This document shows, in pieces, positions 6,688 through 39,247 of a DNA stretch of 64,000 bases. Under the pieces are notes generated by a model that made no database searches, had not been told where the DNA came from, and saw nothing but the letters and a program-made list of their open reading frames with translations. A program made the position numbers and the translations under genes. Within the stretch, counting starts at the first letter, position 1, and the number at the start of each line of letters is the position of its first letter. Location: the NCBI GenBank assembly GCA_032622095.1, contig CP136069.1:108218278-108282277 (forward strand), given 5' to 3'. Source of the stretch: Siphonodentalium dalli (lineage: Eukaryota; Mollusca; Scaphopoda; Gadilida; Siphonodentaliidae).

Positions 6688-7735
6688 TAGTCGGGCAGCT
6701 AGGTACACTCCCTATGGACCCCCCAGGACTCCTCCGGACCGATTCACTTATGTACCTGGATACCTCTAGAGTAGAATTCCGGATGTTAACAAGAAATCAA
6801 CCTGGCCGCATATGACGTAATCCAAGATGGCGCCCATGATGGTCGGAAAATTTCGTGATTTTTCCCTATGTATATGACGATTATGGAAAAAATAATTGAG
6901 ATATGACATTACAATGAATTGCATTTTGTTCCTTATATATTTCTCTGTTAACTGATATCAAATTTGTAAATTAAAATCCAAGATGGCCACCAGAATATGG
7001 CTCAGAATTTGATAAATTAGAATTTTTTTCAACAATTTTTTCAGAAAAAAACACAAAACAAATCACAATATGACACAAATATTTGAACATTATGACGTTT
7101 ATATGACCGCAAGTAATTCTTCAATATCATCTGACAAAAATATCTGCAATTGACAACTCAGGGAGAAAACAAAATGGCCGCCACTGCGATCACCCGCAAC
7201 AGTCGGTACGTTTCGCGATATTACCCTATGTCTATTCATATGACGATTGTGGAAAAACCAATAGAGCTATGACATTGCAATGAATTTCATTTGGTTCCTT
7301 ATATATTTCTACGTTAATTGATGTCAAATTTGTAAATCAAAATCCAAGATGGCCATCAGAATATGGCTCAGAATTTGAGAAATTCGACTTTTTTCCAACA
7401 ATTTTTTCAGAAAAAAACACAAAACCAATCATAATATGTCACAAATATTTGAACATTATGACGTTTATATAACCGCAACTAATCCTTCAATATCATTTGA
7501 CAAAAAAATCTGCAATCGACAACTTAGGGAGAAACAAAAAGGCCGCCATTGCGATCACCCGCAACAGTCGGTACATTTCGCGATATTACCTTATGTCCAG
7601 TTATATGAAGATTGTGGGTAAACCATTCGCTGTATTACATGTGGTATATTCCTCGTACTTTTCTGGTGTCAATGATGCCAGTAAAGACCCAAAATGGCCC
7701 CTATGATATGCCTTAATGAGAACATGCCTGTTTTT
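6688..7735 (+). repeat. Element A, left inverted arm
   Basis: Mirrors 14262-15325. The internal direct repeat has a period of 366 bp (CAGAATATGG at 6991 and 7357). A third, more diverged unit continues to about 7914 and resumes after the hAT at 9851-9880, so the left arm was longer than the right. Confidence 0.85.
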
Positions 7736-7914
7736 TTACGTATTTTTGTTTAAGAATTGTCTTGGATGCAGATGACTTAATCCAAAATGGCCACAGGAGG
7801 GTGAACAGTTTTTGCAAATAACCCCTAAGTTTATAGTTACATGATAGGGAAAAACTATATGAGATAATAAATTGAGGTAAATTGCATTTTGTTGCTTATA
7901 CCATTCCACGTATT

Positions 7915-9842
7915 TAGTGTTGAAACGATTAATCGACTAATCGAAATCGACGCGATTATTAAATTAGTCGATTCCGAAATCGGCTAGTCGACTAGTCGGA
8001 ACACACCCACCACCATTATGCCATCGCGAAAGCAGTGCTGTTGCTGCCGTTACCGAATTACTGGACAATTTAAACAATCAGGCTATCGATATACAAAATC
8101 ACAATAGCTTGTTAAAGCCTTCTTTGTTGTCCCTTTGATGCGATAACTGCTTTCAGTACTTGGTGGTCATGCACGAGCGCGAAACCCAATGACCTAAACT
8201 CAATGTATTTGTCGGCGCCGCAGCGGCTTATTCTTTGAAGTTGAGACGGCCGGCTTTGATAATCAACTTCAAAGAATCAGCGCCTATCGCAACCGTGTCT
8301 ATTTCGGCGTGACGGAATTGATCTGAGTGATAACTGGTCAACGTGTTTGCAGGTGTGCAGGACTCAACTTCAATCAAGTTAGTTGCGAGGTGACATTATT
8401 AAGTTTTAAGTTTAATAACAAGTCCAATATATTATAGTTTATTGAAGCACTATGTCAGTATACCTTTAAAGTTTATTTGTAAAATTGTGTGATATTTTTT
8501 ACAACCACCACATGCATCAACTGACGCATGGGTGAGCGTATACGATTGCACGTTCTAGATATATTGTATTATAGATATAAATATAAAGCCAACCCGCGGT
8601 CGGCCATGCTATGCATCGAATAGCGTCGCGTATTTCGAACTAAACTGGCGAGTCACTTCGGAAATCCCACGTCGTTTATGGGCTGTGTTTGTGAAAAATT
8701 ACAATGTATTTTAGCACCTCAAACTTAAATCCTTCGCGGAATTGGGCGGTGACAAAGCTGTTCCCAGAAACGTAATCTGGATGACGCAAATTCCTGGAAT
8801 CGGGCTAAATATAGAACTTACAACATCGCATTGAAAAGTACTATTAACATCGTCGGTCTGCGCAGTTTTATTTCTGAAACTGACACGATCGATTGTGTAT
8901 TCGTGGACTCGCGAGTAAAATTGTATATATTGTATATATATTTACAATGTACCATGCACGAGAGACAATTATGTACGCGATCAAATCAAACAGTGAAACA
9001 CGTGCGTTTTGGCGGGAAAATGACTGTCCGTGATTAAGCTATGTCATATCGTGACCTTGCAATGAATACAAGGAACAACATTATGTACGCAATGCATGGC
9101 CCATTTTTAATATATGCGGACTCTATATATACAGGGAACTTTACCACATTCCGTGTCCGATATATGTACATGACATCTGCGAGCATAAAAGGCTTGTACG
9201 CACTACAGCTGTTATAACATTTATTTTGTAACTTTTGTTTGACTCTGTCGGAGATGAAGTTCGTTTCTCAAAATATCTTGCATTTCTTCATGTACGCCCG
9301 TTAAAGCCCTGTTTGTGAAGTCAATCGGTGACAAGCACACTGGGCAAGTTCGAAAACAACGATGTTCGATTGTATGTAAGAACCGGTACGGCCCGGTAGA
9401 CCATACCATATCAATTTTAAAGGAACATTTTTACACAAAACATATAGAATAATGCACCGGTTTCTGATTGTTGCACGTGCTTCCACTCCGTAATCCGTAG
9501 CGTTTCCGCGATCGATCAGGTGTTTGTCACCACCGTTTAGATACATACATCAACTGGATGGTAATTTGATTGTCATAAAACATCATATACCTGGGACAAA
9601 TTAATAACCTATTAACCTTCAGTGATATTAAGCCAAATGATCACGGCAAATAGTGTTAAATCACGTCTTGCTTTGCGTTCGAAAATGCAAAGTTGGTTAC
9701 TGGTACTCAAAACAAACGGCAAATTATATACGTATATGAGCACAAAACGGTAAGTTTCGGAAGGGGTCCGACTAGTCGACTAGTAGTCGATTCCCTCTGG
9801 CGACTAGTCGAATCCTCAAAACAACTAATCGTTTCAACGCTA
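7915..9842. mobile_element. hAT transposon, non-coding, inside element A
   Basis: Ends TAGTGTTGAAACGATTA and TAATCGTTTCAACGCTA are inverted, flanked by a perfect 8-bp duplication CACGTATT (7907-7914, 9843-9850). Subterminal CGACTAGTCG palindromes are abundant at both ends. The 1.9 kb body has no credible transposase. It contains an inverted repeat at 8235-8277 (TTCTTTGAAGTTGA / TCAACTTCAAAGAA). Its 8500-9035 part resembles 49540-49770. Confidence 0.88.
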
Positions 9843-9879
9843 CACGTATTATATTATGTGTTCTGTTCAGAGAGTATAA

Positions 9880-10489
9880 AACCCTCCTATCTACCCACAC
9901 CAACAAGGAGCAATCAGGCACCAGGGCCATTGAAAATAAATCATGTCACGAATGTGTGACAATTTGTATGTACACTATAAGTTACAACAAGTAGCTCCAA
10001 CCTCCACACGAGTAGCCTATGTTAAACAAGACACCAACTCGTATTTATTAATCCTGATATCATCGGATTCAACATCTTCGTCGTCAGAGCTTTCAATGTT
10101 TCCTTCGACAGGCAAATCTTGGAGTGTTGGTGGAAGAATGCCACATTCGGAACACAGTGTCTCTAAAATCCCTTCGTCATCGATTCATCCATTTTCAAAT
10201 GGTGACAGAATAGTGTACTTATTCACGTGACCAACACGGGAGTTCAAACATTTTATGTGAGGCGTCAGCACCTCTTACGTGGTGGCATTCTGGATAAGTC
10301 AAATTTTGATGACTTGGTGCCAATTAGTTCATCTTTACCAACCATCTATATTAGCATCAAAATCTCACTGTATCAACGTTATTCGCTCTATAGGAAATCC
10401 AAGTCCATAAGGCGTCTTATTACCATGCCCGGTATATACCTACCATCAAGTCTTGGTCAAAGATGAGGACTGCTGAAAGACGGCATTCA
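9880..10489. other. Unassigned interior of element A
   Basis: Lies between the end of the left-arm repeat unit and the recognisable Gypsy pol. A Ser-rich plus-strand frame (10060-10230) mirrors an acidic minus-strand frame. Neither is convincing as a gene. Confidence 0.4.
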
Positions 10490-13400
10490 GTACAAAACAC
10501 GGAAGTTTAGAATTTGTCAAAATGCCCTTTGGGCTCTCGGGAAGCCCTTATACCTGGTCGAGGGTAATAAACCTGGTTTTTCCAGGCCTGAACTGGTCAG
10601 TAGCTTTGTGCTATCTCGACGACGTAGTTATTGGAGGTTTTTGAGTGTCTAATCACCTCCAGAATCTCCAGGAAGTACTACAGAGATTCTGTAAATATAA
10701 CCTGAAATTAAAACCCCAAAAATGTGAGTTCTTCCAGCACAAAATGGAGTGTCTAGGAAGAATTGTCAGTCAGAATGGGGTTGAATGACGAGTCCCTAGA
10801 AACAGTTAAAAACTTCCAACCCCATCAAGTACCAAGGAAGTAGAAAGCTTTTGTGGCCTGGTGATCTACCATCGGGCTATTGTCAAAAGTTATGCCGTGA
10901 TAGCTAGACCATTATATGCCCTCTCTGGAAAACAGCCATTGATATGGGGAAGAACATCAGGAGGCCTTTGATACACTATCTGTCTCCTCAAGTCTTGGCA
11001 CTACCCAACAGTAGAGCTGAAACGGTTGACCCATTCTTCTAACCGGTTAACCCCGATGGTTAACCGTCGGGGTTAACCGGATTTCAACCGGTTAACCGCT
11101 AAATTTCTAACGGACTTCTCTCACACTAATTATTTCGACATTATGCCATGCTCCAGGGACAAACCTAGGTGAGAAGTAGTAGCTGAAATAAAGACCTTAT
11201 TCACGGCATTTAACGATATTCAAAAACACGCATTCACTGTTCTTTTGCTGGCTCTCGTGATGGGGAATGAGCAAGTGAAATTTGTGAATGGCAGGGGAGA
11301 TCGCTTATTTGCCGTGATCAGCATATGTTTGGGCATTTGTAAAACGAGTAAAATAGTATGGGTATTGGTAAAACGAGTAACAAAACTATATATTAAAGAT
11401 CTGTAATATATCATTATCATCATTGGTATATCCTCCAATGCATTATATATAAAGTCAAGAAAGTAATAACAATAGAACAAAAAGGAAGTTCAGTTAGGTC
11501 AGACTCGCAGTCCTATTCAGTATTCGAGCTATTCGTCAGTATCATGATAGCGGACACTAGTGTTGGGAGGTTATATAATTTACGTTTCGGTTTCTTTTTT
11601 TTTGGTAAAAAAAACCTCGGTTTCGGTTTTAGTATGCAATCACTTAACATATAATAGCAATTACAGCCAATTTGAGTGTTAATTAGTCCCACAGGCACAA
11701 CCAGTTACAGAGTAGCATGGAGCATCAATTTCCTTGATAAAAGGGAAGATTATTGAAGAAGTTTTGGGTTGCTTCAACTACGATGTCTGTTTGGTCACTC
11801 AATTGAATTGATCATATTAAATCACAACAGAAAGGAAGAACGGGAAGAGTGAAGACATTGTGCAGCTGATCTCAATCCTCAAACTTTGTCGACTTACATA
11901 GTTTTTATAAACCCCACTGTAAAACAGTTTTATATATAGTATGTCGTGGTGTGATTCCAATTTGAATCCATGTTGCTTCGTGCAGTATTAACTATTAAGT
12001 TACGAAAGCACGCATTGCCACACAACGCCACTTTTACGTTGTTACTTCCTTGTGTGCATTCAGACTTGATACACAGTGACTGCGCACGTGCTTTTGTCGG
12101 AAGAAAACTTCAAAGGGTCGGAATTGATTGAAGGTCGCCGACACTTCCAGAATTGCTACTAAGTATCTGATACTACCGCATGTACAAATTAATGCTTGCA
12201 TTGCACTCTACTATCGGTGACACAGGATTTAGTATTAGTTTTGCATCATTTAACCTAATATTTTGAGGATTATTCACGTTCACATTCAGCTGACAACAGG
12301 ATGCGGTTAAGTCCGGTTCATTTTTTTCTAACCGGTTTCGTCGCTAACCAGATGCTAACCGGTTAACCGTCTAACCGTTTCAGCTCTACCCAACAGTGAA
12401 GACTCCTTTGTCCTGGATTGCGATGCTAGTGGGTGAGCCGTCGAGGTGGAACTCTTGCAGATCATAGGGGATAAAGAACGAGTGATTGCCCATGGTAGCT
12501 TTATCCTTAACCCTGAGCAAAGCCAGTATTGCACGACACGGAAAGAACTCCTGGCTGTCATAAGGTTTAACCGGCAATTCCGTCACTACCCTTCCGACAA
12601 GCCCTTCCTTCAAAGGATGGATCATAGCAGCCTCAAATGGTTGATGGGTTTCAAGAGCCCCCAGGGTCAGATAGCTAGATGGTTGGAGGAGCTCAGCCAA
12701 ATATGACATAGTGATTGAGCACCGACCGGGTAATAACCATGTACACGCTGACGCCCTCTCCCGAATACCAACTGAGGTCACTTGTCAGCAACATACCGCG
12801 GGCTGTGATCTTGACAAGTTGCCATGCAAGGGCTGCAAATACATGTACTGTCAGCGTCTCCAGCGAAACTGGGCTAGATTTGAAGAGGAAGTTGTAAACA
12901 TTGTGACTTTAGCCCAGGGGTTATCAGGGTTTGTAACTTAGAATGACCAAGTGACTCCATCTGTCTCAATGGTAACATCCGCTAATTACTCAGGTGAGGA
13001 ATGCTGGCAAGACAGATTCCATGGGCTGCCATGGGACCCAGAAGGCGACTGGTCGGATTGCAAGCCATGTACTGTTTGTGTCTGCCCAGACACTGGATGG
13101 ATGAACTCAAAATTGGACTTGCATTAACACCATATACATAAGACAAAGGTAATTGTGAGACAAGTTACAAGTTCAGATCCTGACCTAAGCTTGGCCGGTA
13201 TATGCACCCTAGTTGAACTTGGGGAAACGACGTAAGGATTCGGATCTATCCCCAGTCATTGTGTAGATAGAATCCGGTCAAGAACCAACAGAGGGTGAAT
13301 AATTCATCTCCATTAAGGCCACTAAATATATCTGGATTAATCGTCAGATATTTGTGATAGTAAATGAATTACTGTATAAGATAAAATAGAAATTGGGAGC

Positions 13401-14250
13401 ACGTTAATAGTCATTCCCAGCCAATTTGCGGCTGAGATCTTGGCTATGGCTCATGATATACCCGCTTCTGGTCATCAGGGAGTGGTGCGTACCAAAGCTA
13501 GGGCAAAAAAGTACTACTATGCATGGAATTCATCAAGACATTGAATCATTCATAGGGGTCTACCCCAATGCAATCAAGAGAAGAAACCATCGAGGCATAC
13601 CAAATTGGAAATGCAAATTGGAAAGAGTGCACCTGGATTTCCTGGGACCATTGCCACTTAGTGAACAGGATGACATACATTCTGGTGATCACAGATAAGT
13701 TTACTAAGTGGGTGGAGTGTATTCCCCTTCCTGATCAGACCACAGAAACGATGGCATGTGCGGCGGTAAATGAATTCTTTGCACGCTTCGGATGCCCTTT
13801 GCAAATTTTGACGGACCAGGGCCCATGTTCTGAAGTAATTTTTCTGTGTGATCTGCGAGTTACTCCAGATACATAAAACCCGAACGACCCCTTATCTACC
13901 TTCGGCAAATGGCCAGGTGGAACGTCAAAACTGGACCCAGATGAATGCGGTCCGATGGTTGGTTAACAAAAACCAACGAAACTGGGACAAATTCCTTCTC
14001 CAAATAGCGGGCGCGCTAAGATCATCAGTGCACAGACTTACGGACCAAACACCAAATAAACTTATGTTGGAACGTAAAGTTAATCACCCAGTAGACTTGG
14101 TGTTTAATTTTATGAAAGAAACTCAGATTAAAACTGATACTGGTCAATACCTGAAAGACCTTGAACAATAAATGAAGCTGGCCCATGAAATTTCCCAGGA
14201 ACATTTAAAAACTACTTAAAAACAAAATTTAAATATTATTTATAATAGGA
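10490..14250 (+). mobile_element. Gypsy (Ty3-like) LTR retroelement fossil, pol region only
   Basis: In order I see reverse transcriptase (about 10500-10790, MPFGL and YLDD-type motifs), RNase H (about 10930-11011 and 12397-12760, split by a hAT), an integrase zinc-binding remnant (about 13430-13560) and integrase core (about 13620-14170). The order RT, RNase H, integrase is Gypsy. No LTR, gag or protease is recognisable, so both ends are lost. It is broken in many places (on the order of ten or more) and looks old. It fills the centre of element A and is interrupted by the hAT 11012-12388. Confidence 0.85.
11012..12388. mobile_element. hAT transposon, non-coding, inside the Gypsy fossil
   Basis: Inverted ends TAGAGCTGAAACGGTT and AACCGTTTCAGCTCTA are flanked by a perfect 8-bp duplication CCCAACAG (11004-11011, 12389-12396). 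Subterminal GGTTAACC palindromes repeat at both ends. The terminus TAGWGYTGAAACGRTT is shared with the hAT at 7915-9842, so both are one subfamily. No transposase frame is seen. Confidence 0.9.
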
Positions 14251-14261
14251 TCTCTGTAAAG

Positions 14262-15325
14262 AAAACAGGCATGTTCTCTAAATTAAGGCATATCATAGCA
14301 GCCATTTTGGATCTTTACTGGCATCATTGACACCAGAAAAGTACGAGGAATACACCACATGTAATAAAGCGAATGGCTTACCCACAATCTTCATATAACT
14401 GGACATAGAGTAATATCACGAAATGTACCGACTGTTGCGGGTGATCGCAATGCGGGTGATCGCAATGGTGGCCAATTTGTTTTCTCCCTAAGTTGTTGAT
14501 TGCAGATGTTTGTCAGATAATATTGAAGGATTAGTTGCGGTCATATAAACGTTATAATGTTCAAATATTTGTGACATATTATGATTGGTTTTGTGTTTTT
14601 TTCTGAAAAAATTGTTGACAAAAATCGAATTTCTCAAATTCTGAGCCATATTCTGGTGGCCATCTTGGATTTTGATTTAAATATTTGACATCAGTTAAAG
14701 TAGAAATATATAAGGAACCAAATGCAATTCGTTGCAATGTCACAACTCAATTAGTTTTTCCACAATCGTCATATAAATAGACATAGGGTAATATCGCGAA
14801 ATGTACCGACTGTTGCGGCTGATCGTACTGGCAACCATTTTGTTTTCTCCCTGAGTTGTCGATTGCAGATTTTTTTGTCAGATGATATTGAAGAATTACT
14901 TGCGGTCATATAAACGTCATAAACTTTAAATATTTGTGTCGTATTGTGATTGGTTTTGTGTTTTTTCTGAAAATTAAAAAAAAAAAAATTCAAATTTATC
15001 AAATTCTGGGCCATATTCTGGCGGCCATCTTAGATTTTAATTTACAAATTTGATATCAGTTAACAGAGAAATATGTAAGGAACAAAATGCAATTCTTTAT
15101 AATGTCATATCTCAATTATTTTTTCCACAATCGTCATATACATAGGGTAAAATCGCGAAATTTTCCGACCCTCATGGGCGCCATCTTGGATTACGTCATA
15201 TGCGGCCAGGTTGATTTCTTGTTAACATCCGGAATTCTACTCTAGAGGTATCCAGGTAAATAAAAAAATCGGTCCGGAGGAATCCTGGGGGGATTCCATA
15301 GGGGGTGTACCTAGCTGCCCGACTA
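14262..15325 (-). repeat. Element A, right inverted arm
   Basis: Reverse complement of 6688-7735, with scattered differences suggesting an old insertion. It contains the same two tandem units (CCATATTCTGG at about 14646 and 15011). Confidence 0.85.
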
Positions 15326-15383
15326 ATTAGAATTACGATGTTTACCGCAGGAGTTTTGAAAATTCGTAATATTCGTATATCGG

Positions 15384-15397
15384 CCCTTAAGGGTTAA
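15384..15397 (-). mobile_element. piggyBac-like terminus with TTAA target
   Basis: CCCTTAAGGG abuts TTAA (15394-15397). On the minus strand this reads TTAA|CCCTTAAGGG, the style of piggyBac ends (TTAA target, CCC start). It pairs with the acidic coding fragment at 6379-6528. The other end of the element is not seen. Confidence 0.4.
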
Positions 15398-15474
15398 TAT
15401 TGCATATTGTCATGCATAGCTGGCATTTTTGTATTGTCAATGTGCCGACTTATGCATTCACGCTTGAGTAGAAC

Positions 15475-15608
15475 TAGTCCAACAAATTAGACGTTTCGGA
15501 TTTAAGACATATTTTAATATTTGGACATTTATGTTGCCTTAATTCCTCATCGTAAATGTCCAAATATTAAAATATATCTTAATCCTAATAGTCTAATTTG
15601 TTTGACTA
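15475..15608. mobile_element. MITE, 134 bp, with 9-bp target duplication (one mismatch)
   Basis: Inverted arms of about 55 bp begin TAGTCCAACAAATTAGAC and, on the other side, TAGTCAAACAAATTAGAC. The flanks GAGTAGAAC (15466) and GTGTAGAAC (15609) match at 8 of 9 positions. A 9-bp duplication would suggest a Mutator-like origin. Confidence 0.7.
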
Positions 15609-15617
15609 GTGTAGAAC

Positions 15618-16384: not shown

Positions 16385-19300
16385 ACGAGAGGCCGATCAC
16401 AATGGGCAGATGTTTAACCCATACCTTGGCGATACCGATTAGCTATTTTAATAAATCCTTACACCAACCTTTTCACGAGTGCAAAAGTTTCAATAATTGA
16501 CACCTTACTATTAAGGTCACAGTGGAATCAGACTTATTGGGCACCTTGCTCACATAAACACAATAGGAACACGGATGTGGCATTCCATTTCAACCTATTA
16601 AGTCACTTCAACACAGATATGTCTTATAGAGTGATAAAGCTAATTAAGCTCAATCCATAGTCAGAGAGAAGCACCATAGCAGTTAAAGACAAAATAGTTA
16701 TTTATTTGCTTATTACACTGGAATGTGAGACATAACATATTATGTTTTTTTTTAATATTGTTATTTTTATTATTATGTTTTGTGTTAGCTGCATATTAAA
16801 AATTCTTGGGATCATTTAGATGGGACAAAAGAGTTAATAGTTCCGATTCAAAAACTAATCAATAGCTGAACAACTATACAAGTGAGGGATGCATAGACCT
16901 GGATATAAAATGATTGATAATGATTGGATATAAAATGTTTTTATGCAGAATTTTCAGATAGCTAGAGGTAGGATATGAGATTGGTCAAATTGAAAATATT
17001 AGATTCATTACATTGGATAGCATACTGTATGACTATGGAATGGGTTTGATTAATTTTCTTCTAAGCTGATCATTGGAAAGATATAATGTATGTAAACAGC
17101 GGAAATATAATTGAAGTTATGGTTAATATATTATCAAAACCATTCAATCCATACCAAAATTTATACAGGTGAAGAATGTGTCATCATTAACATGGATGCA
17201 ATTATTTATATAGTGATCCTGTGAAAAATATTTAGTTATCACATTGTGTCAACAGGATAGGTGGAGGATGTTAATATTTTTGAGCAAATAAACCAAATGA
17301 CCCTCACTATGCAGGTTAGGGATGTGTTATCATAAACTATGCCAAGAACTATAAACATAATCAATGGAAATATTTGAGTCATGAAATCGGATAGAATGGG
17401 GTTAATCTTACCCAAACTAATGAACTGATAAACACAAAAAGTCTATAAAAAGCATGTCATTGGATTTAGAAACCCATACAATATATTAAAGTCAGTCTCT
17501 AATGTCATGAACCTGTTTTACTCTAGTAGCTGAGGGCGTTTTGTATGCACTTTTATGTCCAGAGCAAAACTCTTCACGAATCCACTAATTGAAGGTACAC
17601 GAACAATATTTGGTTGGTGACACATTTCCCATTGAGGGCGAAATGGGTCAAATGGCCACGCCCCTTTTTGCGCGAAGTACTACCACCCGCCGTGACTATA
17701 TCTCCAGAACCGTTGGCCAAAGGGGGTCGTGTGACCACTCAAAATGTGCGGAATGGCCACAACATGGGGGGTCAGTAATACATTTTCATATCCAAAAGTC
17801 AATGGTTTTTAAGATAATTGCCAAAAACCAAAAAAAATCCATTTTAAGGGCCCAATTTTGGGGTTCAGCACTTTTATCTCAAAGCTGAGCCCCCAATTCG
17901 AATTGTATTGATCTATATCCATCGGTGCCACATATAGGTATAATTTCTGTACCATTATCGGGTGGGATTGACCTCCAAGGAGCTCTTGACCCTGAAAATC
18001 CACATTATGGGGGGTCAGTAATACATTTTCATATCCAAAAATCAATGGTTTTTAAGATAATTGCCAAAAACCGATTTCAGCATGTTACGCACCACAAGTA
18101 TACAATACCACCAAGGCCACAGCATATGTATGACACTTTTTAAAGAACTATCCGAATTCTCTGATCGACTTAAGAGCACAATTGACCACACACAATGGGA
18201 TTAGCTGGAAATTGCTGCTGAGGATGTGTTGATCCCGACACACGACATGAGCTCTTCATGACTGAACATGCCTTGGAAACTGGTGTGCTTTACCAAAAAT
18301 CAGGTAACAATTGTGCTCTAATCAACAGAAATGTACAGATTGAACAAAACAGGTTTTCAAAATTTGTTATCAACATTTAACAGCTGATCTGATTTAAGTG
18401 ACCAAGATATGAAACATGCTAAACACTTTTACTAAATGGAATGACCAGCTGTTTGCTTCATGCAGCAGCCACATGTTGCGATCCTAAAATGGGTATTGCA
18501 CCTGGGCATAGTAAAAACATGTTGTAATCAGATGGGAGATGACCATATATACCAGTATATATTTCAGAAGTAATCAATTCTTACAAAAGGACACCTCATC
18601 TCACAAAAAGTTTTAGGAAATGATGGAATGATCACTATTCAATCAAAATAGTAGAATGAGCCTTTGTCAGTCCCACATTAGTTTTGATTGGCCATGATAG
18701 TTGCATCACTTGCAGGTTGGAGAAGATGAGGGTCTATAATTTCACTAACATAATTCTTCATAATAGCTAATAGCCCTCATAACTTACCATTTTAAAGATA
18801 TTTTCATTTTCAATACCACCTCAGGTTAAGTGGTCCTGCTAATTTTATATTATGCTGATGGGTACTGCTGGATTGATATGTTTCTAGGTCAAAGCAATTC
18901 TGTCAAGTACCATCATTTTACCTAAAGTTGGTTATTTTTGCATTGTTTGGCTAACCCGAGCAATTTGTGCAAAAGTCAGTGTCTGTATGCAACATTCAAG
19001 AAAATATATACTTCAAAATTTTATTGTGTACGCTGATGTTTGGTAAACAACAGGAATAGTCATCTCAATAATGGCCAGTTTGTAAAAACCAGCCCCCATT
19101 ATTAAAATATTTCACAATATACATGTTTTTTAATGTTTTCTACACATTGTGGCTTATCCTCGATTCGTTCAGATCGCTTTGCTCTACCTGAATATCATAC
19201 CAAATGTATTAGCATCACCACTAAACTTGGGAATGAATACTGCCAAATGAATATATTGTGATAAGGGCAGTGGAAAAATAATGGTTGAGTCTTTTCTAAA

Positions 19301-21821
19301 TATAATTCTAGTAAAACCTACACAACACCGTCTTGGTCTGACAAGACTCAGAGTCATATTTATTTAGGAGTATAGACATGAAGTCCACCAGTTTCATGAA
19401 AATTAAATGGGCTCTGCACTAGTAACATCTGGACTCCTGGGACCCATTAATATTGACAAATGCAACACAAATGAAAAATACATAGTAACTTTCCTCAAAC
19501 ATAGATTATAACCTGACAATCATTGTGTTTGAATCAGTGTACATATGTATATGTAGGCATGGCCATAGCATGTTTTTGAAATACTGCAGAGTGCAGACCA
19601 TAAATTTCACTAGAATATACATGTAGTTACTGCATGTACATCACACACATAAGGCGACTGACACACATAAACGTACCTGCAGGGTTCACAATATTTGACA
19701 TGTAAAGTATATATATATCTCCTGTGCCTATAACATCAAACCAAACGGTTTACAGTACTTTTACTGACATTTTTGGAGTGGCACATATACATACATTTTG
19801 GAGTGGCACATATACATACATGTTACGCACCACCTTTAAAGTCAATTTAAAGGGACGAAATGAAAAATAAATTTGTGCAAGTATAATGGAGATCTATATT
19901 GCATTACAACATCCACAAATCTACAAAATCTACAACATCCACAAAATCTACAAAAACATCTGACTATCATAGACATTGGTAATGTGATCATTTTTCCTTG
20001 ATAAGTTGAAACATGAGGGACGATTGCATAGCATGGCTACATGCAGAATGTAGATTTGTATGTATTTATATCTGCATATCAACTGATGCTTGTATTTTTC
20101 TTCTAACTCACTCCAGGCTAGCCATTATTTGTTCTAGAATAATGTACATGTTAGGGAAATTGTAGAACCTTTATACAAAATGGTGATGCAGCCAATCAAA
20201 ATTGATGTGGGACTGATAAAGACACAACCTGCTCGACTACTGAATCATACTGATTGATCAAATTGTAGTAACTCAACATTTACTAAACCTACTTGTGGGC
20301 TGAGTATAATTCAATTCAACATTAGAATACCATAAAAACACCCTGTTCTCCCATAAGTTTAAAGAAAATAACACATTGAACTCATTTACAAGTATATTGC
20401 TAATGTGATATATGTCATTCCATTTATAACCATTTTGGCAGCCATCTCACATCAAAGGCCATGAAATCTAGATAACAAAAGATGAACTACATTCAAATTA
20501 TATCACCAGGTAACCTTTTTGTAGGAGTTTTAGGTTACTGATCAAATACCGTATAATTGATGATTTCCTCAACATCTTTGTTATTGGGAAAATGTCTGTT
20601 TTTCATTCTACGACCAATATATTCCATCCAAAAACCTTATTTTCAGGGTCAAGAGCTCCTTGGAGGTCAATCTCATCCAATAATGGTACAGAAATTATAC
20701 CTATATGTGGCACCGATGGATATAGATCAATAAAATTTGAATTGGGGGCTCAGCTTTGAGATAAAAGTGCTGAACCCCAAAATTGGGCCCTTAAAAATGG
20801 ATTTTTTTTGGTTTTTGGCAATTATCTTAAAAACCATTGACTTTTGGATATGAAAATGTATTACTGACCCCCCATAATGTGGCCATTCTGCACATTTTGA
20901 GTGGTCACACGAACCCCTATGTCCAACGGTTCTGGAGATATAGTCACGGCGGGTGGTAGTACTTCGCGCAAAAAGGGGCGTGGCCATTTGACCCATTTCG
21001 CCCTCAATGGGAAATGTGTCACCAACCAAATATTGTTCGTGTACCTTCAATTAGTGGATTCGTGAAGAGTTTTGCTCTGGACATAAAAGTGCATACAAAA
21101 CGCCCTCAGCTACTAGAGTATTTCAACAAAGGGGTTAACTTTAATTTTGTACAGAACACAGAATGGACCAGAGAGTCATCAATCATGGTTTTGACAATTT
21201 TTTAGAGATGCTATCCCAAATTTGAACCTGATCTGTATTTTGGGGTGATGACCATATGTACCAAATTTGGTGCTGATCAGATGAAAAATATTTAAGTTAA
21301 CACAGCTTGGATGAATTCTATTTAAAAACAAGAGCAGAAAGGGTTAACTAAACGATACCAAAAACCATACAGATGAAGAACGTGCTAAGAAAAATTTAGG
21401 TAAGTAATATGAGGCAGATCAGAAGAAATATGTTCAACTTATTGCATCGGATAACATGTGTGTGAAGGGTTAATTATTTTCTAAACTGATCAACCAATCG
21501 ATACCAAAAACTATACAGGTGAGGCGTGTGTCATCATAAACCTACATATCAAATATGAACACAATCGGACAAAATACACTTTGGTTATAGCATTGGATAG
21601 CACATGCCCATGTGTGGATGCAAAGTGTCAATAATTTCTAAACCGGGCAACCGATCGATACCAAAAACTATACAGGTGAGGGGTGTGTCATCATAAACAT
21701 GCACATAAAATTTGAATTGGATCCGATAAAAATTACTCGAGTAATCGAACCGGATAGCAAGTGTCTACAGACAGACAGACGGACAAACGACGGATGGTTG
21801 ATCCGGACGTCGGCATTAAGT
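16385..21821 (+). mobile_element. Repeat family D, copy 1, split by element C
   Basis: It begins ACGAGAGGCCGATCAC with a hairpin-forming GCCGATC...GATCGGC in its family, and matches 53369-54416 nearly base for base over long stretches. The body holds monomers of about 140 bp marked by GATACCAAAAACTATACAGG. It ends in a GACAGACAGACGGACAAACG tail near 21770-21790. The structure (tandem monomers plus microsatellite tail) is HINE/pearl-like. Element C (17519-21120) interrupts it. Confidence 0.65.
17519..21120. mobile_element. Long-TIR element C (TACTC ends, TTT target duplication)
   Basis: Inverted arms of about 476 bp (17519-17996 and 20645-21120) start TACTCTAGTAGCTGAGGGCG. It is flanked by TTT on both sides. 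The second D copy at 54330-54340 shows the uninterrupted site GAACCTGTTTCAACAAAG, a related empty site that fixes the ends and the 3-bp duplication. The left arm is followed by a partial duplicate (17999-18073). The 2.6 kb interior has one possible decayed exon (18130-18303, FKELSEFSDRLKSTIDHTQW..., with a donor-like CAG|GTAACA), otherwise nothing. Confidence 0.8.
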
Positions 21822-21829: not shown

Positions 21830-24800
21830 CAGGGTTGTCAATAGGTACTGGTACCGGTACCGAAACCGGCGGTAATCAGGAATTAAATCGGTACCGGTTC
21901 TGACGTCGAGTACCGACGGTTCTCGGTACTGATTGTTGATTTCTTTTAATATACCTCTTAACGAATGTAAAGGGTTGATTAAGCAGCTCAACATAAGGTC
22001 CACCCCAACTACAATGGGTTAACGTCATATCGTCAGCACATTCAAACATCAAAGGCACAGTGTGCCGCACTATGACAACTTGTCACGAAATTGACAGAAT
22101 GCAACATTGTGTCAATTTGTGTGGGAGCTTGTGATGATCGTATTTCTTTGATGCGGTCGGAATGCCGCCGGATGCAAGTCTGCAATGTATGTCTGCACGT
22201 GCCGTTTCGAACTTTTGACTTTGAGGCATCATTTGAGAGAAGTCTGCTACTCCGTCAAGTTGTGTTTTACCTTTTACTATGGCGTCCAGAAAATCTAGTC
22301 ACGTCTGGGATTATTTTATCCCACACGAAAATGACAAGCAGAAAGCGAGATGCACCGAATGTAATAATGTAATAGCCAGATCGAAGGGAAGTACATCGGG
22401 AATGAAAAAACATTTGTCGACAAAACACAAAATATCATTGGATTCGGAAGTTCAAGGTTCAACTTCAACTACAATATTTAAGCAGATGCCATTGACCCCA
22501 TTTTTTCAAACTAAAGGGGAAAGTTTATCGGAACTTTTAGGAAAACTGGCCGCTGTAGACAGAATATCGCTTCATACGATAACGAACAGCAGTTTTATAA
22601 GAGATGCAGTTAGCTTACATGGATTCACCCTTCCTCACAGCCACAACACTATACAGAAAGTTATTGTCGGATATAGTGATTCACTGAAAGACGAACTACG
22701 AGATACACTCAAAAAGCTTATAGACAATGGGACCAGGTTTGGCATCACATTAGATGAATGGACATCGAGCCGAAATCGTCGTTACTTCAACATAAACATT
22801 CACACACGGGTGACAGATATTGGAACATTGGTCTCGCAAGAGCAGTTGGCAGCATCACGGCAGAAAAATCAGTGGAAATCGTAAAAAATAAACTTAAAGA
22901 GTTCGGGGTGTCATTCAATGAAAAGGAATCGCACGTTGTTTGTTCTACAACAGACGGGGCATCTGTAATGATGAGTTTCGGTAAAAAGGTAACGGAAAAT
23001 CACATGGCGTGCTATGCACACGCTATCCACTTATCTGTGCAGGATGTATTTTATACTGGTGAAATTCCAACAGAAGATAGCGGAAACATTGAACTTGAAT
23101 GTGATGAAGATGAAGGTGATTCAGGTGATGAAAGTGAAGTTGAGTCTGACTCTGAGTATGATGATATCAACTCTGTTCGCGACATGGGCGCTAACATTTC
23201 GGAGGTTATTAAAAAAGTTCGCAAGATTGTTGTTAAAATTCGCAGGAGCCCTCTTAAAAATGACAAACTACAAGAATATGTGAGGAAAGCCAATAAGGGA
23301 AAAGAACTTACTCTAATCAGGGACAACAAAACACGGTGGAATTCATGTGTTGACATGGTTAAACGTTTTCTGAGAACCAAAGATTCCATTGACAAATTGA
23401 TGATTGATTTCCCGGCAATAAAGCAAGAATTTAGTAACAATGAAGTGTCCTGCCTAAATGAGATGGTTTTAGCGCTGGATCCCATAACGTTCGCCGTTCA
23501 AAAGTTGTCTGATAGATCAATGAATCTGCTTAAAGCTGATGCCGTGTTTAGTTTCTTGTTGAAAACTCTAAAAGAAACTGCTGACTCTGGGAAACGTAAT
23601 TTTAGTTCATTGATGTTTAATGCAATCGAGCGTCGTTTTCGAGAGCGACGGCCATCTCTGTTACTGGATGTATTCAAGTTTCTTCAAAACCCGGAGTCGC
23701 TTAGTGTCCAACCTCCGTTCCCATTATTCAAAATTGGAACCAAGAAACAAATTAAAGAAACCTGTCATAAATTAATAGATTACCTTCATACAGAGAGTCA
23801 GAAAGATGACACCCAGTCCCAGACCTCCCAAGCTACCGCTTCAGAGTCTCAGGCAACTGAAAGTGTGCAACTGCAACCACGAAAACGGAGCAAAATGGCT
23901 GAAGATCTCGACAAGGAAATGGAGTCAGTTATGACACCTGTTGATGTCGACACCGAGCCCTGTGGATATAATATCCAACGTGATTTCCGTGTGTGGGAAA
24001 CCACAAAGGTTCGTCCAAAAACATTGGAATTTCTCTACCGTGACCTTTGCTCAATTCAACCAACTAGTGTTGAAGCAGAACGAGCATTTTCCGCATGTGC
24101 GTTATTCACCACCAAGATTCGTTCGCGAATGGGAGATCGACTACTGGACGCACTGTCATTCATTCGCGCCCACCATTTGGGGACCGACAAGGCACAAAAG
24201 TGCCCAAAGTTACCATCCATGGAGGTTGACACTGAATAAGAACTTGACTTGCTTGTGTGACATGATGAGGGACATCTATTTAGAGTTTTATTTTTCCCTG
24301 TTTTATCATTTATTGTGATTTGTGATATAAAGTTAATGTCACAGACATTTCTCCCAAAAATCTATTCCTAATTTCCGAACTAGCCAACTACAAGTCTACA
24401 ACTAGCCTGAGCTAGGCTTACTGGAAACGACTTTGGTTTCATTGGGTGACATCATTTATGAAATTACAAACTTACAACATGCGAGTAATAGGGCAGCATT
24501 ACGAATTTATGGCCGATTAGTGAGTTCTCTAATTAATTACCACACAAATAATATGGTGTATTGTGAGTCTGTGACACCATGTGACCGTCACTACTATGTA
24601 TACAATACATAGTATTACATACAATGATACAATCATACAAGCCTACAATGTTAGCCGGCTGGCCCGACCCAGTAGTCAAACATACATGTCTACATTCGTT
24701 CCACTCTGTATTCCGTCTTTTTTTAAATCCTCCCTTTGCGACTTGCCGAAAACTGGCGGAGACAACAACTTTATTGTAAATCTCGTGATTTTTATTTTCG

Positions 24801-24978: not shown

Positions 24979-24986
24979 GTACCATA

Positions 24987-31057: not shown

Positions 31058-31296
31058 AATGGGACTCATTGATAAAGCAAATTTGATACATTACTGATTT
31101 AGACATGTAGGGGTGACATGTTGACCATGAAATGTAAGTTTGGTCGGATAGGAGAGAATTTATTTTTCACGACATTGAACACCCATCCCCCACGCAGCAG
31201 TCAATAATCGGACAAAGGCCATTTTGTAGAAATGAACTAAGATTAAATTACTCTACATCCAGGGGGGGACCGAATTTTTTTTACGAGACATGAGGT

Positions 31297-31316
31297 GGGG
31301 GGGGGGGGGGGGGGGG
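31297..31316 (+). repeat. Poly-G tract (20 G)
   Basis: An uninterrupted G run within a G-rich stretch. It is capable of forming quadruplexes and is an assembly-error risk. Confidence 0.9.
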
Positions 31317-32825
31317 TTGGTGGGTACCCGAGGCCGGAAACAGTTTTTGACCACCGTTTTTGCATTTTTTATCATCGACATATTTTCAACTGTTTTAAAC
31401 ATATTTGTTTATATGTTGTGGCTTGTTGCAATATGAGAAGCACTAATACATTCAATATTGTTATAATTACCCCCATAAGTTGATATAAAATGGAAAAATA
31501 GTGAATATTGGGGGGGTGGGTCCCAAAATTTTCATTGATTTTTTTTGCGCGCAATTAATTTTTTTATTGCGTCTGTTTCAGCTTGCTTGGCAGTTTTTAT
31601 ATTGAAAATTGTCTAGTTCACGGTGTAGATCAATAAAAAAAATATTTCAGATAGCTCTAGGGTAGGATGAACTTAATGCAGTCTGACAATATCAGCTAAC
31701 AACTCATGACAGAATATTACAATAATTCTTATACTTCATGACAGTCTCTTTACTCATACAGTTAGTTGATGCATGAGTGTAATGTATGAACTAAATATTT
31801 GTATCAGTGTTTGTATACTAAATTGATTTTTAAATATACTTTTGTCAAATAATTATTTGAATTGTCAAATTATTTGTTTCAGTGTTGTTGACAACCATCA
31901 ATAAGTAAATAAGTAGACATGAAATAAAGTTTTAATAACATTTATTGAAAGAAACAAAAATATAACCTTCCTTGGATAGTCTTCTGAAAAGTATAAAAAT
32001 ATTATTTAAATAGATGTGAAGAGGGGCCAGAAAACATTACAGTTTTTTGTTCACATTGTAATTATTATATCCCATAATTACCTGCATATACTAGTATGTA
32101 AATGACACTTAAAGGATTTATTCGGTCTAGAAACTACAAAACGCAATCGGAAAGCCCTCCCTGTTGTGATTAAAATGATCCAAGTCCCATTCCGATCGCA
32201 TAATAAATAACCCGTAAAATAAATAAATAATACCACCACCGGTATTCGGAGATTTCCGTGACTAAACTACGAGTGACGTACTTGTGGGGAGCAAATTAAA
32301 AACACAGATTCGGAGCCGGAGTTTATTATGCAGACTACGATGACGTAATCGTAAGTCAGCCGATACTAAAATGCGGAGTCGTATGTGCGCGTGTGGTGTA
32401 CAGATTACGTTACGCTTTGGCCGTTTATCTGGAATAGAAGACAATAATTCTGTGAATACAGTAATTAATAGCGCTTAGAATGGTTGTTGTTTTTGTAGCC
32501 ATTAATAACATGCCGGCACGTGTCTGTTTTGGTGAATAGATGGCAGTATTAGTGCTTTGATTGTCTCGCGTATTCACTCGGTGATTTGTAATCACTCGAC
32601 TATTCATCAGTGTCATTCGCGAACTTGTTTGCACTCTAAAATGCCACAAAGTGAATAGAAAGAACATTATCTCTCTGGTCATACTTATATAAGAAGCGCC
32701 CAAATTTATATAAACACTGGGCTGAATAATGTTAACTCTATTTAGGCGCTTTTGTTTTGTGTTTGTTTGTTGTTTTACTTTCGATATAAATATCCCGAGT
32801 ATCTGTCATCGTCACATATTCCAAG

Positions 32826-32915
32826 ATGCCTAGTAGATGTAGTGTGTTCAGTTGTGGGCGGGCTAGCGATCCATTATTTAGTACCTCCAAAAAGACAACA
32901 CAGTGCGTAATTTAG
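32826..32915 (+). pseudogene. Possible THAP-finger first exon fragment
   Basis: MPSRCSVFSCGRASDPLFST and ten more residues before a stop. The start MP..C....C resembles the first CxxxxC pair of THAP zinc fingers found in P-element-like transposases and host factors. Only the first pair is present; the Trp, the later Cys-His pair and the AVPTIF motif are not. Chance similarity is possible. Confidence 0.2.
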
Positions 32916-33090
32916 AACGCTCTTTATTGTCTACCGCTTTTGGGAGACGGAAGCATGGACGCTCTTTATATTTAATTGTCACAATACCACATACAAAATC
33001 ACCCATGACATATCGAAATAAAGCACGTTCATAATTGAGAACGCTCTTTATTGTCTACACCGCGACGAAAACATGGACGCTCTTTATTAG
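32912..33090 (+). repeat. Direct repeat with AACGCTCTTTATTGTCTAC
   Basis: AACGCTCTTTATTGTCTAC occurs at about 32916 and 33040, each followed about 40 bp later by CATGGACGCTCTTTAT. Spacing is 124 bp. Related CGCTCTTTAT words lie in the Helitron near 51106. Confidence 0.7.
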
Positions 33091-35504
33091 AGGCAATCAT
33101 TGGAGTTTTGCTATGCTAACAATTCAAAAAAATCCTCTCTAGAAAGTAAATATGTGCCATCAAAACGTAAAATAAAACGAACAACAAACACAAACTGAAA
33201 AACAATGCCAGGCTAGCCTTCAATTAAAAAAATGTCATTATGCCAAACTGCAGCCTAACTAATCATTTTTGTAGTTTCAACAGTCTGTTGTGTATTCGAG
33301 TGAATTATTTTGTTTACTCACTTATCGATCTTGACTGGAAGGATTTTAGCAAGCTGTTCACAGTCGTGCACTTCTCCACACAAAATGTTTCGTGTGAAGA
33401 AACAGACAGGAACATCATTATGACGAATATAAGCCATCATGATACATGTACTAGTACAATAACCACCACCTTTTTAATCGCACCCCATTTGTATTTAAAA
33501 TTGTACGCATATAGCGCAAAACGGGATGACACTAGTGTGTAAACTATCCTCCGAAATTGGTACCATACAACGAAGAATGAAGTACTGGCATATGGCCTAA
33601 CTTGTATTCTTTCAGAAACAGTTAAATTTGTTTCGCACGATATTCCGCTCGCTCATTGCATTTCTGCATAAATTAATCTCATTTCAAACAACTTTTATCG
33701 CCTCAAAGTGCATTTTAGCCATCATTATTCGTTATATAATCCAACATTCTAGCAAATCCAGTTCATAATTCAGCACATTCAAACAGTTTTATTCCGTAAT
33801 CGCTATTTATCGTAAAGGCTTAGGTAATTAACCAGCGTAATTTATCAACTCGTTACGCGATTGGCGGAATTATTTCAAGCTCCACCCACCGCTGTCATCG
33901 GTAAGCGTTGATGCAGATGATCGGTCATGTGACCGCGTTGTGGTCATGTGATCGCACTCACGTGACTGACTTCGGATATTTCCGCGATTTTTTTAATATC
34001 ATAATAATAAAAATACTATCTGCTCGATTTTGAATTTTCTTGGCGAAATGGGTCTGTTAGACATATATTATTAGTATTATGTCGATAAAAAAAATATTTT
34101 TTTGACAGACTAATTCCTTTAATGTCTAATTCAGGCTAATTTGAAAATTATCAAAGAAGAAAATTAATTTACTTAATTAGTGTATATTTATAAGATGATG
34201 TGCATGCAAGGTGGTCTAGTTTGAAGGCACACATAAAGGTCATGTTCAGAATGTGTGTGAATTTCTTATTGCACATGAACTCCATCCAGTACATGACCGA
34301 AGTTCAGCTCTGATTGTCCAAATGAATCTCAGTAATATACATCCGTGTATATGGATTTGGCACTAGTTTGACCATCAACGTTCAAACTCAAAGGGTTAAG
34401 CACTATTTTAGGCCTAGTTCTAAGTCGTAATGCGAGGTCGGGTCAGTGGTCATGCAGGCATACATAAAAGTTAATTCGTACACTGGTAGTCCGAGAGCCC
34501 ATAAGGTTTTATTATCGTCACTCTGACCAAAAGACCCACTCTGCTCATTTTGTGGCAAATTATATGTAGTTTACGGAAACCAATTTCTTGCGAGTGGGAA
34601 ACGCGGCGTTTGGGAGATATTTAACATAGAATGATGCCTGGTGAGAGCGAAAAATGTTACTTAAGTGTTGGGGGAGGGTTAGTAATTTAGAATGTATGCA
34701 ACATATGTAATGTCAGCTAACACGTTATATATACCATTTTGTCGGCAATACGTCATTCTATCTAGTGAATAAACACATAATTAGAATTTCAACCACTGAC
34801 CTCGAGTACGAGAGGTCAAAGGTCAAAGGTCAAATATATTTTGAAACGCCATTTTTTTTAAATGTCAAATTGGAAAGTTAGCTTAATAAATTTTATAATC
34901 ATCTGCTGGAATCCGTTCTAGTATAATTTTGAACTTTACAGTATACCAGATTCGGATATGTGGAAAGAAAATTAACACAGCCGTAATTGCAACCATTCAA
35001 GATGTCAGCCAAAATGTGTGCCGAAATAGCCAAAAACAGTAAAAATTCATAAGGTCTCTCTGATCGCCGTTATAGTAAAGATGATGTCACCCAAATCCAA
35101 AATGACCACCAGAAATAGAAAAATTGCCGAAAATCGCTGATTTGAACATCAGTGACAGCTATTGTCACGACAACTCCACACATATTGTGAGTTGGGAAGA
35201 CTGAGTCGAAGAACTTATATTGCATCCAAATAAAAGTCGCCCAAATCCAAAATGGCGCCCACAATGGTGGACAGATTTAGAAAATCCCGGAAAATCTATC
35301 ATATTCACATCATTGGGCATTATTGTCAAGACAACTCTACCCATGCTTACAGCCGAGTTGGAAATACTGTGATAAAGTAATTATCTTGGATTTGATGAAG
35401 GATTTTTTTTCCAAATCGAAGATGGCGGCCAAAATGGCGTCCGAGATTTGAAAACAAGCTTACATTCCTTTACTTTAATACTATGTGCGTCATTGTTGTG
35501 AGAA

Positions 35505-37570
35505 TTTGGTCGTCATCTTGAACTAGAAAGGCATATGGTCTATAAGTATACAAGCTTACAGGTCATCTCCATGTATGTATTTCTCATATCCCATGTGGAT
35601 AACCACATGTACACCTGGCGAACTTCCCAGCTAACTAGTCATTTCTCAATAGATGGTTCAACTCACAAACTTAGCGAACGTATTGGCATACGTGGACAAC
35701 TTCGGCAGTGTTTCAAAGGTAGCTAGCTGTCTCATTCCCTTGGACACATTCATATGTGCTACAGAGACGACCATAATGTACCGACTACCCACACTTCTTG
35801 ATCATGATCTTAAGCCACTTTGTATCGTCCCGCATTCGTCTCGTTAGCAGAGAAGAACAATACTCGCGGTGCTAGTTTGTAGACAAGCGCCATGACAGTG
35901 GGAATGAAATGGGCCACGGCATACACCCCCACATCAGGTGCATGTTTCAGATATAGAATGTCATGTGTGTTGGTGCTTTTGGTGTGGTAAGATTTGTGTT
36001 TACACATCCGTTTCAAGGCCGTTCTTAATCAACTTGACCAGACATGTAATTTTGTCTGGATAATACTATCCTATCCTCCCCAGAAGAGTCGGATGGGCAA
36101 AATGATGTCTGTATGGAATGAAGGTATGCGTTGTTGTTATCCTCTCTCAAGACTAGTGTCAGTATATGGGCGGTATTTTCCAAGGAACTGTGATGCATTT
36201 GTGAGAACAATTTATAGATCGATGGGAATGGATGATGACATTGGTGAACTTGACCTTTATGGTCATATAGCTTTATAGTATATAACTTTAGAATATAGTA
36301 GTTAATATGTCTCATGCAGGACAATGGCTTTGAATGGCGATGTTACCAAGAAATAAATTGGTGTATCCAACGTAGGTTAAACTTAATGCAATGTCTCAAC
36401 AATCCCCTAGATGTTTTTCGAGTTAAAATTTTCACCAGTGTGGTGATGGCTATCATGGCATTGCACTTTCTTGAACCACACCGACCATCACACATCGTGA
36501 GTATGACATCAACTACCAAATGCATCGTCCTCAAGACTACATCCCATTCTGGGTGGGGCTTATATAGTAGTAGCCAATGGTACAAGCCTGGTCTAATTGA
36601 TTAAGAACGGCTTCCAAACGGATTGGAAGATACAATCTTAGCATATAAGGGAAGCAAAGCTACATGAGATCATGTCTAAATCTAAAACATACTCAAAGAA
36701 GGGGCAGTGCAGCCATGGTCCAATTTCATTTCCACTATCATGACACTTGCCCACAAACTAGCACCGTGTGTATTGTTATTATCTGCTTGGATATGTACGG
36801 TGAGACGATTGCTGGACGCCACCATGACTGTGTATTCTTATTATCTGCTTGGATCTGTACGGTGAGACGATTGCTGGAAGCCACAAGGACTGTTCTTATG
36901 ATCACGGTCAAGAAGTGAAAGTATATTATGCATTATGGTCTTCTGCGCCTTAGCAGAAAGGCACCCGTCAAATGTTAGGCTTTCAAAAATTCGAAGCCAT
37001 ATACAGAAGATATCCGGCTACGTCAGTATGTAAATATGTGAATTGATGAACCATATATTGAGAAGTGGCTGGATGGGTAGATCACCATTTTGTTATCCAC
37101 ATTAAGTTACCAAATCTGAATCTGAATACGCAGATAGAGACGTCCTTCTGAAAGCTATTATACGCATCGACCGCATAACTTTCTAGTTTATCACACAATA
37201 TGACGATCAGACCCCATATGTAGTGTCTGAATTATACCATAAGCTACCACGAATGAAGCTCGTCAAGAATAAGGATAATAATTCCCATCTTTCGAGACAA
37301 ACGCGTGAGCTTGACACCGGCATATGTATTGTGGGTCTTCATCCTTCCAGAAGGCGACGACCTATGTTGGAACTAATAGTTGGCTTATGTACCGTTTCGT
37401 TCAATCCATACATATTGATATTATGACGAAAAGTTGAAATTTGTGTGTGATAATTTCGACTTTCTTCAATTTTTGGCCACCAGTTTGGCAGCAATCTTGA
37501 TTGCGAAAGTTGGCCAAACTCAAATAGATACTTCACATCAATTTTCCATATGAATATTTAAGTGTGTGTA
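35505..37570. pseudogene. Interior of element B, decayed inverted coding remnants
   Basis: The minus-strand frame 35810-36016 contains HFIPTVMALVYKLAPRVLFF followed by SANETNAGRY. A plus-strand frame near 36718-36790 reads SNFISTIMTLAHKLAPCVLL followed by LSA. They appear to be two arms of one ancestral gene in inverted orientation. A 66-bp tandem duplication (ATCTGCTTGGATMTGTACGG at 36781 and 36847) lies in the plus copy. I do not recognise the family with confidence. Confidence 0.4.
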
Positions 37571-38831
37571 GAATTCTCACAACAATGACGCACATAGTAT
37601 GAAAGTAAAGGAATGTAAGCTTGTTTTCAAATCTCGGACGCCATTTTGGCCGCCATCTTCGATTTGGAAAAAAAATCCTTCATCAAATCCAAGATAATTA
37701 CTTTATCACAGTATTTCCAACTCGGCTGTAAGCATGGGTAGAGTTGTCTCGACAATAATACCCAATGATGTGAATATGAGAGATTTTCTGTGATTTTCTA
37801 AATATGTCCATCATTGTGGGTGCCATTTTGAATTTGGGCAACTTTTATTTGGATGAAATATAAGAACAGTTCTTCGAATCAGTGTACCCAACTCACAATA
37901 GTAAGCAGGTGTGGAGTTGTCGTGACAATAACTGTCACTGATGTTAACATCAGCGATATTCGGCAATATTTCTATTTCTGGTGGCCATTTTAGCCGCCAT
38001 CTTGGATTTGGGTGAATATTTCTCTACTCGGGTATAAGAGGAATCCTAGCTCGAGTATCTCCTGCACATATTACGCGTGGGTTTTGTGATAGCAACAACA
38101 TTCATTGATTCGAAACAGTCATTGCGTTATTAGCGTCGTTTTGGCTTTGATTATACCGGCATTTGGGAAAACGTGATATCGGACAAAACTGTCCAGCAAG
38201 GAATGTATATTATTATCCCCATGTGTTCGCCAATGATTCTTCTATACGATAAATGTATAAAATCGCGTCAAAAAGCCAATATTTTCCAACATAGACTAAC
38301 GAAAGGTGGTGAAATGTCCAAAAAATAGCAATTTTTCACATTTCGGCGGCCATATTGAATTTTTGTGTCGGATTTTTGGCTAATTTGTAAGGGTTGTATA
38401 TTACCATAACGTATCGAATGGACAACATGACCGCATGTGACATCATCTTTACTATAACGGCGATCAAAGAGACCTTATTAATTTTTACTGTTTTTGGCTA
38501 TTTCGGCTGATTTCGGCACACATTTTGGCTGACATCTTGAATGGTTGCAATTGCGGCTGTGTTAGTTTTCTTTCCACATATCCGAATCTGGTATACAGTA
38601 AAGTTCAAAATTATACTAGAACGGATTCCAACAGATGATTATAAAATTTCTTAAGCTAACTTTCCAATTTGACATTTTAAAAAAAAAATGGCGTTTCAAT
38701 ATTTTCGAGGTCAGTGGCTGAAATTCTAATTCTGTGTTTATTCACTAGATAGAACGACTTATTGCCGACAAAATGGTATATATGACGTGTCAGCTGACAT
38801 TACATATGTTGCATACATTCGTAATTACTAA

Positions 38832-38850
38832 CCCCCCCCCCCCCCCCCCC
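38832..38850 (+). repeat. Poly-C tract (19 C)
   Basis: In the right arm of element B. The left arm has GTTGGGGGAGGG at the equivalent place, so the run expanded in one arm only. Confidence 0.9.
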
Positions 38851-39247
38851 AACACTTAAGTAACATTTTTCGCTCTCACCAGGCATCATTCTATGTTAAA
38901 TATCTCCCAAACGCCGTGTTTCCCACTCGCAATAAATTGGTTTCCGTAAACTACATATAATTTGCCACAAAATGAGCAGAGTGGGTCTTTTGGTCAGAGT
39001 GACAACAATAAAACCTTATGGGCTCTCGGACTATGGTTCATATGCACATTTTCTTAGATTGCTTAGAGTTCAATTTTGCACATGTTTGTTAACAGGACGT
39101 AACATTTAAATTGGTCTGTCAAAAAAGGGACCAATATAGAGCGGTTGGTCGTTTTTACAGAGGGACCAACATAAAGCTTCGATGTTTTGGGGTGGGTGTC
39201 TAAAATTTTATGAAAAAAAAATGCAAGAAAGGGTGGGTGGGTGTAAA

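Follow-up and report, generated by a model that had tools for sequence, protein, structure and literature searches.

The stretch analyzed here, 64,000 nucleotides of the scaphopod mollusc Siphonodentalium dalli (GenBank assembly GCA_032622095.1, contig CP136069.1, positions 108,218,278 to 108,282,277 of the forward strand; hereinafter the window), carries three giant palindromic elements, A, C and B in their order along the DNA, which we relate below to a fourth element, D, of the same genome. Each of the three has exact inverted ends and is flanked by a perfect 3-bp target-site duplication (TSD; Table 1). The ends of all three share the consensus TA[G/C]TCnnnnAGC, with seven of the first 12 columns identical (TA.TC....AGC); in a test devised after the motif had been seen, at least seven shared columns arose in 2 of 300,000 random triples. 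None of the papers listed in literature searches was seen to name these ends. The terminal inverted repeats (TIRs), which form the arms, measure 1.07 kb in A; in C they comprise 482 bp and an additional 73 bp, and in B they extend over ~1.0 kb in two blocks, matching at 88% and 92%, along with inner inverted repeats.

An earlier note, made from the letters of the window, had given the coordinates, termini and 3-bp duplications of these elements exactly as we find them, and had described their arms as unrelated in sequence, which agrees with the lack of any alignment between the arms of A, B and C in arm-to-arm comparisons. It had also pointed to CCAAGATGGC-like words in A and B. Such words are indeed present there, and their supposed specificity to the two elements does not hold, for they also form satellites of the window. 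Exact CCAAGATGGC occurs five times in the arms of A, once in those of B, never in those of C and once in the ends of D, as against 23 times in the window satellites, twice in the remaining 42.7 kb of the window and twice in eight other loci (24 kb). A looser form of the word gives 2 (A), 8 (B), 0 (C), 3 (D), 1 (satellites), 0 (rest of the window) and 8 (the eight loci). These words, which contain the YY1 consensus GCCATCTTG as given in a passage of PMC7481187, were hence dropped as a non-specific family mark. The satellites themselves, with a unit of ~155-164 bp that includes this YY1-type word, form arrays at 39374-40868, 51687-52829 and 59344-61349 of the window.

Table 1. Positions of the elements, their arms and the sequences nested in them (window positions, except for the copies of D)
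Feature	Location	Strand	Basis or remarks
Element A, non-autonomous long-TIR DNA transposon	6688..15325	.	Ends, TSD ATT, genome copies of end
A left arm (TIR)	6688..7739	+	Internal repeats of ~365 bp
A right arm (TIR)	14256..15325	-	91% complementary to left arm
Nested hAT-like element in A	7915..9842	.	8-bp TSD CACGTATT (7907-7914 / 9843-9850); high-copy match stops at these limits
Second nested hAT-like element in A	11012..12388	.	8-bp TSD CCCAACAG (11004-11011 / 12389-12396)
Decayed Gypsy pol fragment in A (reverse transcriptase, RNase H, integrase core)	10450..14171, start approximate	+	RT_RNaseH and rve matches; translation by eye
Element C, non-autonomous long-TIR DNA transposon	17519..21120	.	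TSD TTT, 340 exact genomic ends, uniform length
C left arm (TIR)	17519..18072	+	
C right arm (TIR)	20639..21120	-	97.5% complementary
Element B, non-autonomous long-TIR DNA transposon	34487..39033	.	TSD TGG, genome copies
B left arm (TIR)	34487..35506	+	Two blocks
B right arm (TIR)	37572..39033	-	Blockwise pairing with left arm
Element D copy	C9:173867136-173873902		6,767 bp
Element D copy	C2:144989615-144996987		7,373 bp

Genomic copies and target-site duplications

Copies were sought in the whole genome (2.2 Gb, nine contigs) with the arms as queries. First-look candidates numbered 469 for A, 279 for B and 1,180 for C, and 40 were scored for each element. With matches to internal repeats excluded, the alignment begins at base 1 of the element for A in 38 of 41 rows, for B in all 40 and for C in 39 of 40; therefore, the boundaries proposed in the earlier note are right. 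The exact 20-base end of C occurs 340 times in the genome (169 + 171), and its reversed control not once. Of 100 listed places with this end, 90 make 45 facing pairs and 10 are unpaired. C is a family of uniform length, the 45 pairs having a median of 3,575 bp and a maximum of 5,853 bp, with 39 of them within 3.3-3.7 kb; among ten further C copies, the right end was absent at the predicted place in two.

Tabulating the flanks of more copies, the check that the earlier note had suggested, upheld the 3-bp duplication in 24 of the 28 pairs with both ends resolved (A 8, B 5, C 9 and, from the relative described below, D 6). They comprise four of the eight in A (ATT, TGT, AAT, GTA), all five in B (TGG, ATG, TAC, TTG, GTG), all nine resolved in C (TTT, TAT, GAG, TAT, ATA, TAT, CTG, TTT, TAC) and all six in D and D-like elements (TAT, AAA, AAA, AAG, ATT, CCT), the CCT at C6:60382428 coming from a site where two candidate partner ends share the same flank. 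These 24 duplications include 17 different triplets, with no fixed sequence and none reading TAA or TTA. It could be argued that the arms are unrelated rearrangement palindromes whose ends match by chance, as the arms of A, B and C show no mutual alignment. However, exact ends with 3-bp duplications recur at many independent sites, and nine tenths of the 100 C ends listed among the 340 have a partner, mostly ~3.6 kb away; the copy data thus refute this reading, to which we give next to no weight.

The copies of A display some further peculiarities. Two short ones of ~0.9 kb (L015 1501-2396 and C4:283742644-283743562) are scarcely longer than both arms together, and a 3-bp duplication (GTA) flanks just one of them. 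The same A insertion with its flank is found twice on C8 (86.06 and 89.06 Mb; L026, L034), in opposite orientation and 98.4% identical across 3.3 kb; these duplicates adjoin a tandem array of sequences resembling DNA polymerase B (polB), with a period of ~5.39 kb. At C4:71.64 Mb, an A insertion adjoins a 290-aa open frame (L028 2-871, minus strand) that is receptor-like, and by eye resembles a G-protein-coupled receptor.

Coding content of A, B and C

None of the three elements yielded a transposase. Pfam searches with 10 of the 57 open reading frames (ORFs) of at least 60 aa in A and B matched only Gypsy RNase H and integrase, and C, judged from its ORF list alone, has nine ORFs, the longest of 107 aa and starting from the right arm. 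A reaches 8.6 kb partly because two hAT-like elements, so labeled from their ends and TSDs only, are nested inside it, and the second of these interrupts the Gypsy pol fragment. We read all three as passenger cargo.

The pol fragment nevertheless raises the alternative that A is a Ginger-type DNA transposon moved by its own Gypsy-like integrase. A does contain a reverse transcriptase, an RNase H and an integrase core, and the integrase part recurs in more than half of the A loci compared (16 of 30), a locus here being ~1.8 kb of one end. However, by eye the pol piece ends short of the integrase C-terminal part, in-frame stops interrupt 9 of the 16 integrase rows, and the pN/pS ratio is nearly neutral, at 0.86 (pN 0.043, pS 0.050). 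This value comes from 16 rows, with gapped or stop codons skipped; WIN and L011 denote one and the same element, and L030 (the same element as L018) and L023 (161 matched bases) were left out. No comparable match was obtained in the three B ORFs scanned. Moreover, a passage of PMC2836005 gives Ginger1 CCGG/CCGT 4-bp duplications, TGTNR ends and a GPY/F motif, and Ginger2 duplications of 4-5 bp. The resemblance to Ginger1 lies in an integrase piece that is truncated and near-neutral in A; in duplications, ends and integrase, A does not correspond to Ginger1. The Gypsy integrase was rejected as the transposase of A on account of its truncation, stops and pN/pS, and Ginger-type movement of A is very improbable.

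A protein-primed DNA polymerase B adjoining an A end (L026, L034) was initially taken as the mark of an autonomous A. This candidate was dropped because three related polB loci (4.5 kb each) lack an A arm and because the tandem polB array adjoins the A insertion. Genome-wide, polymerase-B-like frames yielded 1,088 first-look candidates, 150 of them scored; dozens of the frames are ~950 aa long, are listed without stops and, by eye, are possibly Polinton-like.

Element D, a probable relative encoding DUF6589

On a guess that the missing partner might be of the Academ type, the genome-wide search for named transposase families began with DUF6589 (PF20231), which Pfam lists as a domain of unknown function. 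It returned 90 matches and 196 candidates, with none in 14 control genomes. The flanks of two near-identical DUF6589 copies stop at a sequence reading inward TAGTAGAGGCTCTTATG, the same bases stand at the left ends of these two copies, and their left and right flanks give TAT and AAA duplications. Element D, thus delimited, is apparently an intact element of the same genome. Its inverted ends, TAGTAGAGGCTC, start with TAGT, and its diverged arms align over ~600 bp at 68%. The open frames listed for D measure 1,380 aa (C9), 1,541 aa (C1) and 1,582 aa (C2). DUF6589 is matched at 30.0 bits, where the cut-off is 27, and the C-terminal part displays, by eye only, acidic motifs like those of FEN/XPG nucleases. 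First-look candidate relatives of these two parts number 2,254 (44 scored) and 4,651 (111 scored). In addition, D-like elements of 5.7 kb have ends and duplications as in D, and an inner 2.1-kb stretch of one of them contains no frame longer than 119 aa. The ends of two further DUF6589 groups were also sought: one has no boundary within the fetched stretches, and the two loci of the other show no similarity.

Proposed relationship of A, B and C to element D

The shared TA[G/C]T ends, the sequence-free 3-bp duplications and the long inverted arms make movement of A, B and C by D-type transposases the simplest account. We consider it probable that A, B and C are three non-autonomous, long-armed families of the superfamily of element D, which looks like Academ. 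We infer that DUF6589 is a transposase domain, and that it is the D-type enzyme that moves the three families. Under this proposal, a D-type DDE transposase encoded elsewhere would bind their TA[G/C]T ends, excise the element and join it to a target staggered by 3 bp, whereupon gap repair would yield the 3-bp duplications.

Several observations weigh against this proposal. Some concern D itself: a third copy (C6:154.69 Mb, 9,498 bp) is broken by stops; for the nuclease part of the C2 copy, a second listing gives a frame of 956 aa as against 1,582; the XPG-like part has no Pfam or PDB match; and D is the only DUF6589 family with its ends read. Others concern its link to the window elements. The duplication is seen in only half of the A pairs; those without it are C7:33925101 (flanks TAT/ATA), C4:283742644 (CAA/AAG), L027/L036, whose ends lie 13.3 kb apart, and L025/L019, with a truncated left end. 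The ends of D retain TAGT and the C at column 12 of the end motif, yet have neither its column-5 C nor its AG. In a comparison covering part of the copies, none of 158 arm places (41 A, 40 B, 77 C) lay within 15 kb of any of 258 transposase or nuclease places, the nearest distance being 70 kb. A tblastn search with the D protein found no match in the window or in loci L001-L068. Finally, a family rule of Repbase, as worded in a passage of PMC4455052, allows one mismatch in 11 end bases; compared two by two, the ends of A, B, C and D differ at three to six positions, so that all six pairs fall outside it.

The same evidence can be turned in favor of the alternative that A, B and C form a separate, undescribed DDE superfamily, whose likeness to D in TA ends and 3-bp duplications is coincidental: no element uniting the ends of A, B or C with a D-type gene was found in the part of the copies compared, the D ends lack the column-5 C and the AG, and none of 60 loci of A and B matches the D protein. 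Against it stands the fact that the very first family searched, DUF6589, agreed at once on the first bases, the duplication length and the long inverted arms. There is also a weak subterminal similarity between the arms of B and D (74-80% over 49-76 bp), though much of it is the common CCAAGATGGC-type motif. We therefore regard a separate superfamily as unlikely. Its more explicit form, in which a dedicated transposase, related neither to D nor to any catalogued superfamily, moves A, B and C, with TA[G/C]TCnnnnAGC ends and sequence-free 3-bp duplications as the defining features and the likeness to D convergent, appears quite unlikely.

Preferring the assignment of A, B and C to the superfamily of D, we retain from the earlier note the idea of one transposon lineage, which the shared ends and the consistent 3-bp duplications favor. 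Its suggestion that the lineage is undescribed is not supported, since D, with TAGT ends, long arms and 3-bp duplications, carries DUF6589. The statement that no nameable superfamily has such ends likewise lacks support, as the layout of D fits Academ, which the note itself had named among the matches that would overturn it. Most likely, then, the three elements add new non-autonomous families to a kind of transposon already known and do not constitute a superfamily of their own.

Giant palindromes of this class, common in the genome studied here, are accounted for by the three families, and the end motif of A, B and C may be used for filing similar unclassified repeats. Moreover, the six D and D-like copies link DUF6589 with mobile DNA whose ends are defined and whose insertion sites bear 3-bp duplications. 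Palindromes of this length also bear on genome assembly and chromosome rearrangement.

Comparison with known superfamilies

In Academ, a known but little-studied group, duplications are 3-4 bp long, and an XPG-type nuclease, or a helicase, stands beside the transposase, of which DUF6589 is the presumed domain. The name Academ for D derives from the domain and the putative nuclease, together with the duplication length. For the last of these, a passage of PMC5199201 gives 3 bp. A passage of PMC10294476 places the Academ elements of molluscs almost only in bivalves. The assignment of D to Academ is a putative one. Like Academ, the elements described here have sequence-free 3-bp duplications and many non-autonomous-looking copies, and the long protein of D, in which a putative nuclease part comes after DUF6589, would fit the group; unlike it, A, B and C have no transposase gene and very long arms.

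Elements of the Foldback/Galileo type, from the MULE or P superfamily, resemble A, B and C in their long, internally repeated inverted arms and scant coding content, but generate duplications of 7-10 bp rather than 3 bp. CACTA/EnSpm elements have CAC termini and were rejected, as the ends of A, B, C and D begin with TA[G/C]T. Fixed duplications such as TWA, CWG, ANT, TNA or AT are described for PIF/Harbinger and other PHIS elements in a passage of PMC4482050, and the variety of triplets recorded above eliminates this group. According to a passage of PMC10045372, IS3EU/GingerRoot elements have TA..TA termini, as seen here, usually with 6-bp duplications and an IS3/IS481-like transposase; the 3-bp duplications and the DUF6589 domain of D set them apart. 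The same source gives Zator a 3-bp duplication, which agrees with ours. Zator elements carry an ISAzo13-like transposase; the genome-wide transposase search was aimed at DUF6589, which D matches instead.

Other features of the window

Apart from the palindromic elements and satellites, the window contains a remnant of a GIY-YIG domain (45331-46054, minus strand), possibly Penelope-like, a name that we offer as a guess. Between C and B lies a hAT-like transposase gene (22237-24236, plus strand), with two overlapping frames that include a BED finger and a hAT dimerisation domain.

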